64,000 nt of DNA from Prochlorococcus sp. AG-418-I20 (lineage in GTDB: Bacteria > Cyanobacteriota > Cyanobacteriia > PCC-6307 > Cyanobiaceae): the NCBI GenBank assembly GCA_003214175.1, contig QCLZ01000004.1, forward strand, positions 62,001-126,000. The letters are read 5' to 3'. The position numbers and the translations under genes are program-made. Under the pieces are notes generated by a model that was given only the letters and a program-made list of their open reading frames with translations, had not been told where the DNA came from and did no database searches. Positions 2,704 to 34,492 of the stretch are shown piece by piece. Every line of letters begins with the position of its first letter. The stretch's first letter is position 1.

Positions 2704-3478
2704 AAAAGTAAACCTTTTTTTTGTTTTAATTTTTGTTTTTGTCAATATTTTTTGTATTGAACCATGCTATTCATTGTCTGCGAGAGAGGATTTGTTTAAA
2801 AATGCATTAGATTTAAGCTCATCTGGAAAATTTAATCTTGCCTTACAAGAATGGAATCGCTATTTAAATGCCTATCCTGATGATGCTGCAGGTTTGAGTA
2901 ATAGAGGAAATGTAAGACTTGTTATTGGAGATGTAGAGGGATCAATAGATGATCAAAATAAGGCAATAAATCTGGATCCTAATGAAATAGATCCTTATAT
3001 TAATAGAGGTATAGCAGAAGAAGCATTGGGTTTATGGTCTCAGGCGAAAAAGGATTATTTGCTTGTTATTTCAAGAGATAGTAAGAATTTTTCTGCAATA
3101 TATAATTTAGCTAATGTTGAAGGTTCAACATCACAATGGCTAAAAGCAAGAGATTTATTCTCAAAAGCTGCTTTTTATAATCCTGGATTTGCCATGGCAA
3201 GGTCAAGTATGGCTTTGGCAGATTATCAGTTAGGTAATATTGATGAATCTGAAGAAGAATTAAAAAAATTAATTAGACGTTATCCAACTTTTGCCGATGC
3301 TAGAGCAGCTTTAACTGCTTTAAATTGGTCTAAGTTTCAATCTGGTAATGCAGAAAGTAATTGGATGGCAGTAACTGAATTAGATCCTAGGTATAGTGAT
3401 GAGGAGTGGTTAACAAAAGTAAGAAGATGGCCTCCAAAACCAACTAGAGATCTAATGAATTTTATTGATTTAAAATGA
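2690..3478 (+). CDS. secreted or lipid-anchored TPR-repeat protein
   Basis: Encodes 262 residues from the ATG at 2690. A TTG at 2678 is also in frame but less likely. The first 30 or so residues form a signal peptide: a basic start, a hydrophobic stretch ([12 protein letters not shown]), and a possible cleavage site near CYSLSA. The rest is tetratricopeptide repeats, for example [14 protein letters not shown] and [15 protein letters not shown], which normally mediate protein-protein contacts. It is probably located in the periplasm or thylakoid lumen. It overlaps ruvB by 14 bases and ends four bases before the peptidase gene. Function unknown. Confidence 0.85.
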
Positions 3479-3482
3479 ATTA

Positions 3483-4667
3483 ATGAAAAGAGATCATTTT
3501 TTGAGAAGAATTGATTCGTTCAATGATGAATTAATTAATTTAAGAAGACATATTCATGCACATCCTGAATTAAGTGGACTTGAAAATCAAACAGCTATTT
3601 TGATTAGTGGGTATTTAAAGAATCTTGGTTGGAGTGTTACAGAATCTATTGGCAGGACTGGAGTCGTAGCTGATTTTGGCCCCTTAGATAAAGGCATTAT
3701 AGGCTTAAGAGTTGATATGGATGCTCTGCCAATATTTGAGGAAACTAAATTAAGTTTTTCTTCAAAAGTAGATGGTGTAATGCATGCGTGTGGTCATGAT
3801 TTACACATATCGATTGGATTGGGTGTAGCAAAAATTATTAAGGATTTAAAACTTAATTTTGGGACTAGGATAATTTTTCAGCCTGCTGAAGAAATTGCCA
3901 GTGGAGCTAGATGGATGATTAAGGATGGAGCAACTAATGGTTTAACAAATATTTTAGGAGTTCATGTCTATCCAGATTTATCCGTAGGGACTATTGGGAT
4001 TAAAGAGGGAAGTTTAACTGCAGCCGCTGGAGAACTCAAGGTGGAGATTAAAGGAAAATCAGGGCATGGTGCTCGACCTCATGAAGGAATTGATGCTATT
4101 TGGGTTGCCTCTAAAGTAATCTCAGGAATTCAGGAATTAATAACAAGGAAGTTAGATCCTTTAGATCCTGTGGTAATAACTTTTGGGAAGATTAGTGGCG
4201 GCAACGCATTCAATGTTATTGCCGAACAGGTTAATTTACTTGGTACGGTTAGATGCACAAATCCTAAATTATTTAATAATATTGGTAAATGGCTGAATGA
4301 AAATATCTCTTCTATAGCTAATAGTTGCGGAGCTGATGCAAAAGTAATATTTAGAGAAATTACTCCACCAGTTAATAATAATTCTGAAATCAATAGAGTC
4401 CTTCGAGAGTCGGCAATTAAGGTTTTAGGTCAAGAAAATGTTATCGAATTACAAAAACCATCCTTGGGTGCTGAAGATTTTGCTGAGTTTTTGAATGAGA
4501 TTCCTGGATCTATGTTTAGACTTGGTGTTTCCAACTCAAATGGTTGTGCTCCCCTACATAGCTCTAAATTTGATCCAGATGAAAGAGCTATTGCTATTGG
4601 AATTAAAGTGATAACAGAATCCATAGTAAAATTAAATAATGAGAAAATTAATGCAGCTGATAAATGA
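3483..4667 (+). CDS. M20 family metal-dependent amidohydrolase
   Basis: Hydrolyses an amide bond of an N-acyl amino acid or related compound; the family includes hippurate and IAA-amino-acid hydrolases. The 394-residue product has the metal ligands HACGHDLH at 101-108 and the catalytic PAEE at 134-137. The dimerisation domain has GKSGHGARPHEGIDA, and the last ligand region is GAEDFAEF. No signal peptide is visible. It sits four bases after the TPR gene and overlaps the next gene by four bases (ATGA), so the three are probably one transcript. The physiological substrate cannot be read from the sequence. Confidence 0.9.
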   Translation: MKRDHFLRRIDSFNDELINLRRHIHAHPELSGLENQTAILISGYLKNLGWSVTESIGRTGVVADFGPLDKGIIGLRVDMDALPIFEETKLSFSSKVDGVMHACGHDLHISIGLGVAKIIKDLKLNFGTRIIFQPAEEIASGARWMIKDGATNGLTNILGVHVYPDLSVGTIGIKEGSLTAAAGELKVEIKGKSGHGARPHEGIDAIWVASKVISGIQELITRKLDPLDPVVITFGKISGGNAFNVIAEQVNLLGTVRCTNPKLFNNIGKWLNENISSIANSCGADAKVIFREITPPVNNNSEINRVLRESAIKVLGQENVIELQKPSLGAEDFAEFLNEIPGSMFRLGVSNSNGCAPLHSSKFDPDERAIAIGIKVITESIVKLNNEKINAADK

Positions 4668-5070: not shown

Positions 5071-6447
<1,377 letters not shown>

Positions 6448-6461
6448 TTATCAATTACAAG

Positions 6462-8468
6462 TTATAGAATTTCCTTCGTTTTATTAACTACGTTTTCGAC
6501 TGTAAATCCAAAATTGTTCATACATTCTCCACCTGGTGCTGATGCACCAAACCTATCCATAGTGATACAAATACCATCAAAACCTGTATATTTATGCCAA
6601 CCAAATGAATGGGCAGCTTCTACTACAACTCTCTTTTTCACACTACTAGGTAAAACACTTTCTTTGTAAGATTCTTCTTGCTCTTCGAAAAGTTCTACAC
6701 ATGGCATAGAAACAACTCTAATTTTTTTACCTAAGCTTGAAATTTCCTTACTTGCTTCAATGCAAAGATTTAGTTCGCTTCCAGTACCAATAAATATTAG
6801 ATCTGGCGTACCGTCGCAATCCGAAACTATGTAACCTCCAAGGGCAACTTTGTCGATCGAGGTATTTTCTTGATTTGGCATACCCTGTCTACTTAAACAA
6901 AGGGCAGAAGGTCTTTTTCTATTTTGAATAGCAAGTTTATAAGCTCCACTTGTTTCATTTCCATCTCCTGGTCTGAAAACTAGCATGTTAGGCATGGCAC
7001 GAAGTGAAGGGATAGTTTCAATAGGTTGATGTGTTGGGCCGTCTTCTCCTACACCAATTGAATCATGGGTTAATACATAGATCACTCCTAGTTCGCTGAG
7101 TGCCGAAAGCCTCATTGAACCTCTCATATAATCGGCGAAAACAAGGAAGGTTCCACCATAAGGAATAAGACCACTATTGTGATAGGCAATACCATTAAGT
7201 ACAGCTGCCATTGCATGCTCTCGTACACCAAAATGTAAATATCTTTTTTCAGGACTATGAGGTTGGAATGATCCAGTTTCTCCCTTTATATCTGTGTAGT
7301 TAGAGTGAGTTAAATCTGCGGATCCACCAATTAATTCAGGAAGGTTAGGTCCTAAGGCACCTAAACATATTTGTGAATGTTTTCTGGTAGCTAAACCTTT
7401 ATCATCAGGTGTATAGGATGGGAGATCTGAGTCCCAATTATCAGGTAATTCGCCTTTTAACATTCTGTATAACTCGGCTCCTTCAGAGGGATATTTTTTT
7501 TGATAATTTTTAAATTTAGAATCCCATTCTTTCTCTAAGTTTTCACCTTTGTTTATTGATTTTCTAAAATGCGCATAAACTTCATCTGGTATTTCAAATG
7601 GAGGATATTCCCAATTTAGAAACTCTCTAGTTAATGCAGCTTCTTCTTCTCCAACAGCTGCTCCATGAATTCCAGCGGTATCTGATTTATTCGGAGAACC
7701 ATAACCTATAGTTGTAGATATTTTAATAATTGAAGGTTTGTCTGTAATTAATTTTGCTTTTTCTATAGCTTCAGTTATTCCTTTAACATCATGATTACCA
7801 TCTTCAACATGTTGTACATGCCATCCATAAGCTTCGTATCTTTTTAAAACATCTTCGGTGAAAGAAACGTCGGTTCGCCCATCAATCGTAATTTGATTAT
7901 CGTCATAGAGTGCAATTAACTTTCCAAGCTTAAGGTGACCAGCTAATGAGCAGGCCTCTGATGCGATACCTTCTTGATTACATCCGTCACCCATTATTAC
8001 GTATGTATAGTGATCAACGATATTGCAATCTGGCTTATTAAATTTTGCTGCTAAGTGAGTTTCAGCTATTGCTAAACCAACTGCATTTGAAATTCCTGCT
8101 CCAAGAGGCCCAGCTGTAACTTCAACACCTTCAGTTTCAAATGTTTCTGGATGTCCAGGAGTTTTTGATCCCCATTGCCTAAATTCTTTAATATCTTCTA
8201 TGGAAACTGATTTGTATCCTGTCAAATGAAGCAAAGAATATAACAGCATACAACCATGACCAGCTGATAATACAAAACGGTCTCTATTGAACCATTTTGG
8301 GTTATTAGGGTTGTGATTAAGTATGTTGTGCCATAATGCATAACCCATAGGAGCACACCCCATTGGCAATCCAGGATGTCCACTATTAGATTTATTTACT
8401 GCATCTACAGCAAGCATTCTTATACTATTTACACAAAGAGATTCTAATGAAACAGATGCAGCGACCAT
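6462..8468 (-). CDS. tkt: transketolase
   Basis: TPP-dependent transfer of two-carbon units in the Calvin cycle and pentose phosphate pathway. The 668-residue product has full family length. The N-terminal domain has [13 protein letters not shown] and the TPP-binding GDGCNQEG motif. The middle domain has GVREHAM and [16 protein letters not shown]. The C-terminal domain ends normally. It is transcribed convergently with thiC. In an obligate phototroph it is expected to be highly expressed for RuBP regeneration. Confidence 0.97.
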
Positions 8469-31032: not shown

Positions 31033-31092
31033 AACGGTTAATAGAGAAATATGTTACCAAATTACAAAAGGCGACACCCAGATTCGAATTGG
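31033..31092. repeat. left direct repeat carrying a tRNA-Cys 3' fragment (att-like)
   Basis: Sixty bases align without gaps to 33114-33173, with 47 identical. The last 23 bases (31070-31092, GGCGACACCCAGATTCGAATTGG) copy the 3' part of the tRNA-Cys gene with two mismatches. The similarity stops after 31092 on the islet side. This is the pattern left by site-specific integration into the 3' end of a tRNA gene. The left copy has drifted and cannot make a tRNA. Confidence 0.85.
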
Positions 31093-31147
31093 TGTATGAA
31101 TTCTCATAAATAATACTATAACTACTTTTTCAGCGATATAAATTAAC

Positions 31148-31257
31148 AACTAACCGCCTACTAACCGCCCATAAGTGATATTTTTAGTGCTTATTTTTGC
31201 TTTTAATTAACTTATACTTCAGGAATTTTGGGCGGTAAAATATAGGGCGGTTTTACG
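31148..31257. repeat. GGGCGGT motif cluster at the left end of the islet
   Basis: Four copies of one GC-rich motif occur in AT-rich DNA. Two face the minus strand (ACTAACCGCC at 31149-31158 and 31160-31169, spaced 11 bases). Two face the plus strand (GGGCGGTAAAA at 31230-31240 and GGGCGGTTTTACG at 31245-31257). A partial TTTTACG repeat follows at 31262-31268. Regular spacing suggests protein-binding sites, such as recombinase arm sites or an operator. Function is not established. Confidence 0.65.
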
Positions 31258-31353
31258 TGGGTTTTACGAAGCACCTTTGCTCTATCTCTTAAGAGAAATC
31301 GTATAAAGTCTAATTTCTCTACAGTGGTATATTAATTGAAAATAAATTTTGAT

Positions 31354-32154
31354 ATGAAAAAAAGAACTGCTTTTATTGGTGCAATATTATCTTTAATTCC
31401 ATTAGGGCAATCATTAATTATTAAAACTGGTTTAGTTTTATCAACTACAGGATTGATGCTCGTAAGTTCTGAAAAGATACATGCAGGAGATAATTCTTAT
31501 TACTTTGATCGTGCTTATGATAAGGCAAAAAGAGGTGATTATTACGGAGCGATTGCCGATTATACAAAAGCAATAGAAATTGATCCTAAAGATTCAGTAG
31601 CATTTTATAATCGCGGCATTTCTAAACGAAAATTGAAAGATTATTATGGAGCAATATCTGACAATACAAAAGCAATAGAAATTAATCCTCAATATGCAAA
31701 AGCATATGTAAATCGCGGATACTTAAAAGATGAATTAAAAGATTATTACGGAGCGATTGCCGATTATACAAAAGCAATAGAAATTAATCCTCAATATGCA
31801 AAAGCATATTACAATCGGGGAATTTCAAAAGTTGAATTAGAAGATCATTACGGAGCGATATCTGACTACACAAAAGCAATAGAAATTAATCCTCAATATG
31901 TAAAAGCATATTACAATCGTGGAGTTGCAAAAGTTAAATTAGAAGATCATTACGGAGCGATTGCCGATTATACAAAAGCAATAGAAATTAATCCGCAATT
32001 AGCAAAAACATATGTAAATCGTGGAAGGTCATATTATTTTCTAAACAACAAATGGGATGCATGTGAAGACTTTAAAAAGGCAGTATCTATTGGGCATACT
32101 TCCACTGAAGAATGGTTAAACACAGAAGGCGCTTCTTGGTGTAGAGATATGTAG
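31354..32154 (+). CDS. exported TPR protein with five near-identical repeats
   Basis: Encodes 266 residues from the ATG at 31354. A TTG six codons upstream is in frame but unlikely. Residues 1-45 form a long signal-anchor: basic start (MKKRTAF), hydrophobic stretch, and a possible cleavage near KIHAGD. Five tandem 34-residue TPR units follow from about residue 63, each close to YYGAIADYTKAIEINPQYAK. A last half-unit (KWDACEDFKKAVS) and a short Cys-containing tail end the protein. Such repeats form protein-binding superhelices, probably outside the cytoplasm. It is the only intact gene of the islet. Confidence 0.85.
   Translation: MKKRTAFIGAILSLIPLGQSLIIKTGLVLSTTGLMLVSSEKIHAGDNSYYFDRAYDKAKRGDYYGAIADYTKAIEIDPKDSVAFYNRGISKRKLKDYYGAISDNTKAIEINPQYAKAYVNRGYLKDELKDYYGAIADYTKAIEINPQYAKAYYNRGISKVELEDHYGAISDYTKAIEINPQYVKAYYNRGVAKVKLEDHYGAIADYTKAIEINPQLAKTYVNRGRSYYFLNNKWDACEDFKKAVSIGHTSTEEWLNTEGASWCRDM
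31540..32049. repeat. five tandem 102-bp repeats inside the TPR gene
   Basis: Five copies of a 102-base unit, each one TPR, are nearly identical at the DNA level. The stretch coding for TKAIEINPQYAKAY recurs with the same codons in several copies (for example near 31667, 31769 and 31871). The similarity suggests recent expansion or gene conversion, and copy number may vary between strains. Confidence 0.85.
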
Positions 32155-32458
32155 GGTTCTCTAAAATTAGTTCATCTAATTACAGGGAAAAATATAAAGA
32201 ATAGAAGTCTTTGGTTTGTCACGGGTTTGTTTTGCAAAATCTTAAAAGACAAACTTTTCATATATCTAAGATTTTATTACTTATATTTGCTGCCAGTTTA
32301 TTGAAAAATATTTTTTCTTTCTTTATAAGGAAATAAAATACTATTAAATTTTTTTTAAGAGTTCTTTATTTTATCAAAGTTTTGTTTATTAAATTCAGAA
32401 AACATTTTTGTAGATTTTAATACCAATAAGTTTTTCAATAAATCTACTTTTTCTTTTT
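32155..32458. other. noncoding stretch inside the islet
   Basis: No ORF of convincing length in either strand. It holds a dyad: AAAATCTTA at 32236-32244 pairs with TAAGATTTT at 32267-32275, with a nested AAAAG/CTTTT pair. This could end transcription of the TPR gene about 80 bases after its stop. Just before 32459 the frame of the broken TPR gene stays open back to a TAG at 32411 and reads like a signal peptide without a start codon. Confidence 0.5.
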
Positions 32459-32758
32459 ATGTTTTCTGAAAAAGTAAATGCAGAGAGTTTTGATTTCTAT
32501 TTTGATCTTGGGTTAAAAAAAGTTGAATTAGGAGATTATAAAGGTTCAATTAAATCGTTTAGTGATGCAATTAATGTTGATCCAAATTATCCAAATGCCT
32601 GATTAAATAGAGGAATATCAAAGGAAAAAGTAGGGGATATTATAGGTGCTTGCGCTGACTATAAACACTTGGCAGATTGCCGAGTTTCAAAAGGCAAGCG
32701 TTATTATCAACAGACTTGCACAAATAAAAGTGTTTTTGAACATGCATTAGATATCTAA
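32459..32758 (+). pseudogene. broken TPR gene, paralogue of the intact islet TPR gene
   Basis: From the ATG at 32459 the frame reads the end of a signal peptide (MFSEKVNAESFDFYF). One TPR unit follows (LGDYKGSIKSFSDAINVDPNYPNA), then a TGA stop at 32600-32602. The same frame continues with LNRGISKEKVGDIIGACADYK to a TAA at 32756-32758. Restoring the stop to Trp or Arg would give the NPNA-W/R-LNRG order seen in TPRs. Upstream, the hydrophobic part of the signal peptide is in frame but lacks a start codon. So the gene seems damaged at both points. Confidence 0.75.
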
Positions 32759-33113
32759 GATGCTTTTGATCAGTTCAATAAATAAATTTAGGTTTGTTTT
32801 AATGTATTTTTACTTTATCTAAACTTTCATTAGTGAAATTGAAAAAACAAATGTATTCTCTACAACTAATTTGCATAAAGAGACAAGGAGTTTTCATCAT
32901 AGTTTGAATATTCTTCAAACCAATTTGAACCTTAAATTATTTACTGATGAAGAGGTGACTGATAACTAAAACTTTCCTTACGGGCGGTAAATGAGATAAT
33001 AAAAATAGGTTCAAAAAGACCTGATAATTTATCAGTAAACTTACAGCCCACTAACCGCCCATTTCTAAACGTCTTGAGTATTAAGAATCGCTACAATAAA
33101 CTCTTGTGTTTGG
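32759..33113. other. noncoding right end of the islet
   Basis: No convincing ORF in either strand; the longest open stretches are about 20-40 codons. It contains the right-hand GGGCGGT motifs (32982-33060) and a perfect 15-base palindrome, CTGATAA-T-TTATCAG, at 33021-33035. Composition is AT-rich apart from the motifs. Confidence 0.5.
32982..33060. repeat. GGGCGGT motif cluster at the right end of the islet
   Basis: One plus-strand copy (GGGCGGTAA at 32982-32990) and one minus-strand copy (ACTAACCGCCC at 33050-33060) occur, with a degenerate neighbour ACAGCCC at 33043-33049. The minus-strand copy is an 11-base match to the second left-end copy (31160-31170). The palindrome CTGATAATTTATCAG at 33021-33035 lies between them. 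The motif was noticed only near the two islet ends. Confidence 0.6.
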
Positions 33114-33173
33114 AACGCTTTACAGCGAAATTATTTACTAATTTAAAGAAGGCGGCACCCAGATTCGAACTGG
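33114..33173. repeat. right direct repeat overlapping the tRNA-Cys 3' end (att-like)
   Basis: Ungapped 60-base match to 31033-31092 with 47 identities. The right half lies within the intact tRNA-Cys gene (acceptor 3' strand and T arm), and the left half is its 3' flank. Identity is highest in the tRNA part (21 of 23), where selection or a defined recombination core would preserve it. Confidence 0.85.
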
Positions 33174-33220
33174 GGATAAAGGATTTGCAATCCTCTGCCT
33201 TACCACTTGGCCATGCCGCC
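33150..33220 (-). tRNA. tRNA-Cys (anticodon GCA)
   Basis: A 71-base cloverleaf on the minus strand. The acceptor stem is GGCGGCA with TGCCGCC, and the anticodon arm AGGAT-TGCAAAT-CCT carries GCA. The T arm has CCCAGTTCGAATCTGGG. The discriminator is U, the known identity base for tRNA-Cys. It is intact, so the islet insertion left the gene functional. Its 5' side faces the divergent LpxB-like gene 42 bases away. Confidence 0.95.
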
Positions 33221-33262
33221 GAAAAAAATTCAATAGAATCTTGTAATGATCTTAACAGTAAG

Positions 33263-34492
33263 ATGGCTCATTCTATATTATTTATATGTAATGGCCACGG
33301 AGAAGATGTAATTGCATCAGAAATAATAAAAAAATTATTAGAAAAAATAAAGAATAAAAATATTGAAGTTTTACCTTTAGTAGGACATGGTGAGGTATTT
33401 AATTCCATAAAATCTAATAATTTTCGTAAAATAGGATATTTAAAAGAGCTGCCTAGTGGCGGTTTTAGTAATCAAAGTCTAAAGGGATTTTTGCTTGATT
33501 TGTTCGCAGGATTTTTAATTTATAGTTTAAGAAATTTTTTTATTGTAAAACAAAAATCAAAACACAACTGCAAAATTATTGCAGTAGGAGATTTTCTGCC
33601 ACTGCTTTTCGCATGGAGTTCTGAATGCGAATTCAGTTTTATTGGGACTCCTAAAAGTGACCATACTTGGAGTAGTGGACCAGGTTGGGCTTTAAGCGAT
33701 TTTTATCATAAGATGAAAGGTTCTGAATGGGACCCATGGGAAATGTTTTTAATGAAATCTCCAAGATGCAGAAATTTAATTATGAGAGATAAAATAACAG
33801 CTTATAATTTGAACAAAAAGAATATTCATGCAAAATACTTAGGTAATCCAATGATGGATTTTGTTAATGCATCAAACGATAAGATATCAAATATTATTTC
33901 TTTTAAAAGGATTATTTTATTAGTTGGAAGTAGATATCCAGAAGCATTTAAAAATCTAAACAATTTTCTTGATTGTCTGCAAGATTTTAATTTACATATG
34001 GATTTAGTCATACTTCTACCTTTAAGTTTGAATGCTGATGTGATGCAAATTCAAAGTTATTTAAATAAATATGGTTTTACAAAACAGAGTAAAGTTAATT
34101 TTTTAATTGATGAAGATTCAGTATGGAAAAAGAAAGATCAATATGTAGTGATTGGAAAAGGTAAATTCAATTCATGGGCAAATATGGCAGAAGTTGGCTT
34201 ATCTAATGCAGGAACTGCTACGGAGCAAATCGCTGGCCTCGGAATTCCATCTCTTTCTCTGCCGGGACCCGGACCACAATTTACAAAATCATTTGCAAAA
34301 AGGCAATCAAGATTATTGGGAGGTAGTGTTTTAGTTTGCAAGAACAAAAAAATTCTTTTAAAACGTTTAAGTTTACTTTTGAAAGGAAAAGTTGATAGGT
34401 TAGAACAAGCAAAAATTGGAAAAAAAAGAATGGGGGAATCCGGCGCAAGTAAAAAAATCGTAGATGCCATAAACCTTCATTTGTTATCTTAG
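33263..34492 (+). CDS. lipid-A-disaccharide synthase-related protein
   Basis: Encodes 409 residues from the ATG at 33263 (MAHSILFICNGHGEDV). The frame is open further upstream to 33074, but that part is only the complement of the tRNA-Cys gene and is excluded. The Rossmann start (LFICNGHGEDVIASEII) and the C-terminal sugar-nucleotide site (GLSNAGTATEQIAGLGIPSLSLPGPGPQ) fit glycosyltransferases distantly related to LpxB. Members of this cyanobacterial group lie apart from true LpxB. The substrate is unknown; a role in envelope glycolipids is an inference. Confidence 0.8.
   Translation: MAHSILFICNGHGEDVIASEIIKKLLEKIKNKNIEVLPLVGHGEVFNSIKSNNFRKIGYLKELPSGGFSNQSLKGFLLDLFAGFLIYSLRNFFIVKQKSKHNCKIIAVGDFLPLLFAWSSECEFSFIGTPKSDHTWSSGPGWALSDFYHKMKGSEWDPWEMFLMKSPRCRNLIMRDKITAYNLNKKNIHAKYLGNPMMDFVNASNDKISNIISFKRIILLVGSRYPEAFKNLNNFLDCLQDFNLHMDLVILLPLSLNADVMQIQSYLNKYGFTKQSKVNFLIDEDSVWKKKDQYVVIGKGKFNSWANMAEVGLSNAGTATEQIAGLGIPSLSLPGPGPQFTKSFAKRQSRLLGGSVLVCKNKKILLKRLSLLLKGKVDRLEQAKIGKKRMGESGASKKIVDAINLHLLS

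Follow-up and report, generated by a model that had tools for sequence, protein, structure and literature searches.

A recombinase-less islet at tRNA-Cys of Prochlorococcus, with ends like those of a recombinase-bearing element and a coding-like signal across the antisense tRNA

Beside its tRNA-Cys gene, Prochlorococcus sp. AG-418-I20 carries a small islet, 2.1 kb in size, which is probably a non-autonomous integrative element, that is, one moved by a recombinase supplied in trans, whose right end would have replaced both the 3' end of tRNA-Cys and, on the opposite strand, the 5' end of a gene for a lipid-A-disaccharide synthase-related protein (TIGR03492). The islet lies within the 64,000 nucleotides analyzed here (contig QCLZ01000004.1 of assembly GCA_003214175.1, positions 62,001 to 126,000), a stretch that will be called the window and whose coordinates are used throughout. 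On sequence grounds, the islet is best read as a CIME-like (cis-mobilizable element-like) member of the picocyanobacterial elements with integrases at tRNA-Cys and tRNA-Phe (PMC10187409). This reading draws on matched arm-type repeats at the two ends, on spacings like those of a 7.1-kb element at tRNA-Cys of Prochlorococcus sp. AG-436-O11 (locus L192), on a recombinase present in that element but found neither in the islet nor in its genome, and on the co-variation of left and right ends among islets.

The initial annotation had noted a 60-base direct repeat, the right copy running into an intact tRNA-Cys and the left copy holding only a 3' fragment of it, on either side of gene-poor DNA with tetratricopeptide repeat (TPR) genes. 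All of this holds. The copies, offset by 2081, match at 47 of 60 bases, while the next best place in the window for the right copy gives 31 of 60, and one of 200 random 60-mers from the window reached at least 47. ARAGORN calls the intact tRNA-Cys (GCA), and Rfam concurs (67.1 bits), calling nothing at the left copy. There, 31069-31088 agrees with 33150-33169 at 19 of 20 bases, from the tRNA end through the T-loop, where the similarity stops. The interior holds one TPR open reading frame (ORF) and a second ended by a TGA at 32600-32602, and no recombinase is encoded in the islet. Two traits went unmentioned in that annotation: the coding-like character of the 60 bases, taken up below, and the clustering of ACCGCCC heptamers at the ends. 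Five of the window's six lie within the islet, close to its left end (three) or its right end (two), as against 0.64 expected in 64 kb. The features are as follows:

31033 to 31092, plus strand: left copy of the 60-base repeat (attL side), an apparently older 5' coding end (peptide YNNYYSKLLFLQRLIEKYVTKLQKATPRFEL...) plus a tRNA-Cys 3' fragment; 47/60 to the right copy, 53/60 to the right end at L056
31069 to 31088, minus strand: tRNA-Cys 3' fragment, acceptor and T-arm through the T-loop, the probable crossover core on the left by its sequence; left-copy peptides diverge after PRFE, i.e., after GATTCGAA
31150 to 31170, plus strand: left arm-type repeat pair CTAACCGCCT / CTAACCGCCC, 11 bp apart, 84 and 95 bp from the fragment, as in L192
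31230 to 31236 and 31245 to 31251, minus strand: left inverted arm-type repeats ACCGCCC, the first 161 bp from the fragment, as in L192
31336 to 32154, plus strand: cargo ORF of 272 aa with five tetratricopeptide repeats (PHROG 7590, 1.7e-61)
32459 to 32602, plus strand: second TPR ORF with an in-frame TGA, by its sequence a probable pseudogene
32982 to 32988, minus strand: right inverted arm-type repeat ACCGCCC; distance to the tRNA 3' end 168 bp (L192: 167)
33043 to 33060, plus strand: right arm-type pair with 11-bp spacing, ACAGCCC (altered at one base) at 107 bp and ACCGCCC at 96 bp, counted from the 3' end of the tRNA (L192: 106 and 95)
33074 to 34492, plus strand: extended TIGR03492 frame, 472 aa with a TTG start, predicted from coding tests to start inside the right end of the islet and cross the antisense tRNA-Cys
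33114 to 33173, plus strand: right copy of the 60-base repeat (attR side), by sequence comparison probably supplied by the element
33150 to 33220, minus strand: intact tRNA-Cys (GCA; ARAGORN, Rfam), of which the 3' part through the T-loop (33150-33169) would be element-derived
33263 to 34492, plus strand: core of the TIGR03492 gene (465 bits)

The element of AG-436-O11 is bounded by two places bearing the ACCGCCC pair. Its parts run thus, in the coordinates of that locus:

2499: tRNA fragment
+2583, +2594 and -2660: left repeats
2725 to 4113: recombinase (462 aa)
5936 to 6526: serine resolvase
-9463, +9524 and +9535: right repeats
9630: intact tRNA-Cys

The order of fragment, repeats, and intact tRNA is identical in the islet, the left distances are equal (84, 95 and 161 bp), and the right distances are 1 bp apart (96, 107 and 168 bp against 95, 106 and 167 bp). 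The ends themselves are 85% identical over 231 bp and 82% over 175 bp. Allowing at most one mismatch, 10 of 266 genomes have the ACCGCCC pair, at 13 places that include the window's own two, while the reversed control pattern occurs in none of the 266; viral contigs gave no match to the exact motif pair or to the recombinase profile.

The most probable course of events is as follows. The enzyme would be a tyrosine recombinase of the tRNA-Cys/tRNA-Phe family, acting in trans and encoded by a complete element, for instance the one in AG-436-O11. Inside each end it would attach to the arm repeats of about 11 bp, both paired and inverted, and strands would be exchanged in the T-loop part of tRNA-Cys. 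The right end would bring a new 3' end for the tRNA, and the bases concerned would double as a new 5' end of the TIGR03492 gene. The old copy, displaced to the left end as a fragment, would decay there. The interior would serve as exchangeable cargo, in the window the TPR genes, and the islet would now adjoin the remnant of another, earlier occupant.

If so, relatives should be found without the insert, as the initial annotation had suggested checking between purM and the TIGR03492 gene. Of 122 relatives surveyed at this interval (a nonrandom choice, from the high-scoring part of the listing), 84 are empty, with 110 to 257 bp between orf55 and the tRNA; 34 are occupied, with more than 300 bp; and 4, where the end of a contig was reached, are undecidable. 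The insertion is thus polymorphic. Element-type flanks are seen at two sites counted as empty (L138 and L139) and at short deep-branching loci, so the empty class can include scars. The seven deep-branching loci (L246-L252) were kept out of the survey, their distances from orf55 to the tRNA being 100, 1651, 317, 6636, 202, 2633, and 434 bp. To the 34 occupied survey loci were added the window and six loci fetched for their motif or recombinase, giving the 41 occupied sites considered below; L203, which consists of attL and a recombinase before its contig ends, was excluded. Inserts range from about 0.1 to 10 kb, and gene content differs among the five largest of the first 35. The interior of the window's islet has no DNA match in the 40 others, and TPR similarity is found in 3 of the 41, the window's included. 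The TPR cargo protein matches a family of unknown function, PHROG 7590, and so has phage relatives.

An old tandem duplication of tRNA-Cys, one copy having decayed while unrelated DNA accumulated between the two, could also leave a partial and a whole tRNA in tandem. It is a very remote prospect. In the 84 empty relatives the interval is short and holds a single tRNA with no insert, inserts vary in content and size, the fragment's likeness to the tRNA stops at the T-loop, and matched arm repeats stand at both ends. A simple tRNA duplication, contradicted by the empty sites and matched arms, was rejected.

The larger recombinase-bearing elements that the initial annotation had proposed seeking at the same tRNA also exist. 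Besides L192 they are L127 (with arm repeats ACCATCC), L198 (ACCGTCC), and L203 (ACTGTCC; the contig ends before the tRNA), and related recombinases lie near tRNA-Phe at L199, L201, and L202. An exact 11-bp tandem repeat lies beside the start of the recombinase in L199, and there is none in L201 or L200. The family was found in 9 of 266 genomes but not in the window's own, a draft 95.6% complete. In a search of the genome-contig database, the sole locus found was that of AG-436-O11 itself. In an alignment of six sequences (leaving out L201, with a stop in frame, and L202, partial), the R, R-H, and Y columns that tyrosine recombinases should have show no variation, and a K was recognized by eye. 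The accessible text of PMC10187409 describes a novel tyrosine integrase near tRNA-Phe or tRNA-Cys of Prochlorococcus and Synechococcus. This integrase is reported to differ from those of tycheposons and frequently to have a small serine recombinase close by, and in 2023 its mechanism of mobilization or integration was given as not yet known. The islet shares with these elements the tRNA and the host group, and L192 has likewise a recombinase invisible to Pfam and PHROGs, a serine resolvase nearby (L192:5936-6526), and variable cargo. The islet differs in lacking the divergent tyrosine integrase that the published elements encode; its membership is argued from its site at tRNA-Cys and the ends it shares with L192. 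Most occupied sites are like it: 38 of the 41 are without a recombinase of the L192 family, the carriers being L127, L192, and L198. Small cargo islets in streamlined ocean genomes may therefore move without any gene that annotation would recognize.

Prochlorococcus also harbors tycheposons, which are reportedly tRNA-linked and cargo-bearing. The islet resembles them in its host genus, its linkage to a tRNA, and its cargo unaccompanied by a recombinase, and the initial annotation had brought them up beside its reading of a decayed or satellite element moved by a helper recombinase. That it is a decayed tycheposon, moved by a tycheposon recombinase, now appears improbable. The recombinase with the same ends fits the family reported as distinct from tycheposon integrases (accessible text of PMC10187409), the islet itself has no recombinase by which it might be typed, and at 2.1 kb it is far smaller than the 4-200 kb quoted for tycheposons in the accessible text of PMC10872708. 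The only Phage_integrase match in the genome is a gene of 393 aa (L009, on contig C1). It was set aside as a possible mover, because genes of about 389 aa and similar score recur in many of the listed genomes and because it lies outside the family of the six-sequence alignment. What remains of the earlier interpretation is the recombinase-less element integrated at the 3' end of tRNA-Cys, together with the empty sites and the larger elements.

Matched end repeats in fixed geometry are not peculiar to the window. In most occupied sites, a tandem repeat of about 11 bp lies some 90-120 bp from the tRNA, while none was found in 8 empty sites compared beside 35 occupied ones. The arm types are ACCGCCC, ACCATCC, GCCGACC, CACCTACC/TTTCCTACC, TTGCTGTC, and ACCGTCC. 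For 26 of the 41 islets, left and right arms could be compared, after dropping 14 for want of a left fragment and L125 for the 8 mismatches in its best one (L044 was entered with its best fragment only). The two ends of an islet tend to be of one type: the longest common substrings sum to 315, whereas 20,000 re-pairings gave 160 on average and 242 at most, none reaching 315. In L102, L120, and L134, which score low, the left and right types differ, and in L196 the type is the same but the right arm has decayed. L044 has two nested left ends, the outer of ACCGCC type and the inner of ACCATCC type, a tandem accretion within one genome. Islets with mismatched or nested arms look like composites, accretions, or products of decay.

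The left copies bear the marks of displacement. There are 27 of them, L044 contributing two. Classified by eye, 14 encode in frame the resident peptide of empty sites (KLYTLYLKLKFFENF and the like), about 6 more encode it with frameshifts or stops, and 7, the window's among them, do not. In-frame stops interrupt 8 of the 27 left copies but none of the 41 right copies (p = 3e-4); the left fragment of L118 abuts orf55 and is possibly spurious, and when it is dropped the figures become 7 of 26 and 0 of 41 (p = 8e-4).

The window's repeat had been described as having drifted. The closest relatives of its two copies differ, however. The right copy is nearest to other islets of the ACCGCCC type, at their right ends (L196 and L193, 58 of 60 bases), the left copy to the right end of a different islet, L056 (53 of 60 bases, and 89% over 116 bp). 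The left copy thus appears, from these comparisons, to be neither resident nor a drifted twin, resembling rather the end of another, earlier element. The site would then have held that element before, and most of it would have been lost either before or after the present islet arrived. Copies that descend from different occupants need not have been identical at insertion.

The right end also gives signs of having come from elsewhere. It is 94.0% identical to that of L195, a distant relative, while the neighboring core gene is 76.7% identical over 600 bases, a contrast that points to transfer. The ends of L040 and L251 are 94.6% identical over 130 bp, and their core genes can be compared over 45 bases alone (80%).

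Perhaps, instead, a full ACCGCCC-type element lost its recombinase by internal deletion, leaving an immobile remnant. This deserves real weight, though it is the less probable account. Consistent with it, one direct repeat is altered on each side of the islet (ACCGCCT and ACAGCCC), one TPR gene is apparently a pseudogene, and no recombinase of the family was found in the genome. Yet among the 38 recombinase-less sites matched ends are kept in many, and this, with the end shared at 94% with so distant a relative as L195, fits repeated mobilization in trans. Movement in trans may continue at present, though the history of the islet and its mobility today are separate questions.

A number of observations weigh against a non-autonomous element mobilized in trans. 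No excised circle or attP was seen, and the binding of arm repeats by the recombinase is proposed by analogy. Searches of NCBIfam, Pfam, and PHROGs gave no match to the L192 recombinase, PDB sequences gave none to the six-sequence profile, and a single-sequence fold prediction for the L192 protein reached a pLDDT of 36; the class of this recombinase therefore rests on the conserved R, R-H, and Y columns and the published family, to which it was assigned by traits (tRNA, serine recombinase, conserved residues, and absence of a Pfam/PHROG match) rather than by comparing the sequences directly. Among the 26 islets, 8 score 7 or less in the comparison of arms, the level of unrelated pairs (L056, L069, L077, L102, L118, L120, L134, and L196), 14 of the 41 lack a recognizable left fragment, and the window's own direct pair has the altered repeat on each side. 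No excess of end over core identity is seen with L196 (87.2% against 88.5%) or L192 (82.1% against 80.0%). Finally, the islets are related to one another, so the arm test and the others overstate independence.

The TIGR03492 gene has a match in 254 of 266 genomes of the genus, some of them weak, and its protein is present in all 194 genomes of the family. In each of 129 genomes, the 60 bases, the antisense tRNA, and the gap that follows, always 14 codons long, form a single open frame into this gene, without a stop. Entropy by codon position is 0.83/0.58/1.07 in the 41 occupied sites and 0.23/0.17/0.50 in 62 empty ones, whereas the other two frames carry stops in 39 and 26 of the 41 and in 62 and 62 of the 62. 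For the 20 codons beside the tRNA, pN/pS is 0.39 among 77 distinct empty sequences and 0.53 among 40 occupied ones; the other frames of this stretch give 1.06/1.12 and 0.90/1.56. The contrast is weaker in the 14-codon gap (0.48 against 0.61 and 1.20), and the first 30 codons of the core give 0.20. The 60 bases thus have a coding-like signature, seemingly under purifying selection in the TIGR03492 frame. The balance tilts modestly toward the idea that one end of an element restores two genes on opposite strands, the N-terminus being translated from the antisense of the tRNA, and that selection on the host protein shapes the ends of the entire family, including the recombinase-less elements and the several arm types that share the hotspot, and swaps the N-terminus between lineages.

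A start codon (ATG, GTG, or TTG) lies between tRNA and core in 116 of the 129 genomes, so ordinary initiation there is possible, a point against translation across the tRNA. The coding-like signal might then reflect constraint on the DNA of an attachment site, with TIGR03492 starting at an internal GTG or ATG or at an in-frame TTG in the antisense anticodon. At one fixed position, 106 of the 129 genomes have GTG, 6 ATG, and 1 TTG; the promoter of the tRNA may fix the length of the gap; and the contrast in pN/pS within the gap is weak. This alternative is nonetheless judged the less likely, in view of the codon-phase pattern, the pN/pS lowest in the TIGR03492 frame, and the stops in displaced copies. 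Furthermore, the gap has no ATG, GTG, or TTG in 13 of the 129 genomes, nor in 9 of 19 more distant loci, 12 from other genera and the 7 deep-branching ones. All 129 genomes have G as the third base of the codon found where the internal start lies (GTG, GCG, GAG, GGG, AAG, CTG, TTG, ATG, AGG), perhaps as part of the tRNA promoter on the opposite strand. If the antisense frame is indeed translated, the N-terminus of a protein present throughout the family would be renewed by mobile DNA through a tRNA gene.

At 13 loci in other genera, tRNA-Cys always lies antisense beside the gene, and the frame is kept through the tRNA in 12, L245 being the exception. Four loci of other genera (L235, L236, L238, and L242), upstream of TIGR03492, have RKRDLIIEFLQL in common beside the tRNA, with core proteins about 45-48% identical to the window's. 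There, too, the ends were possibly delivered by elements.

Some of what is proposed has precedents. CIMEs, in the accessible text of PMC5704250 and PMC3146451, have lost their integration genes but kept attL and attR, as has the islet, and accrete beside other elements at one site, as do the two nested left ends of L044. The islet's parent, unlike theirs, is not known to conjugate, and several arm types share the one hotspot. In islands that restore their targets (Islander; accessible text of PMC4383910), the island restores the split target and the displaced fragment marks its far end, as here, except that a single end of the islet apparently restores two genes, a tRNA and the protein gene antisense to it. 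Elements with retained ends, accretion, and tRNAs restored by islands are therefore already known. Att repeats, typed arm sites, and replacement of a 5' end were not found described in the accessible text of PMC10187409, and no description of typed arm repeats, or of an element that replaces the 3' end of a tRNA jointly with the 5' end of an antisense protein gene, was found in the literature, most subscription papers being beyond reach. The islets would offer a testable anatomy of attachment sites for an integrase family whose mechanism that report described as not yet known.

Larger inserts at tRNA-Cys carry other kinds of cargo. Judged by eye from translations, that of L125 is sugar-pathway-like and that of L062 methyltransferase-like. 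Relatives of the TPR gene stand at contig ends of the window's own draft genome (L204, L205, and L206, on contigs C16, C17, and C7), which suggests that repeats of the TPR family broke the assembly.

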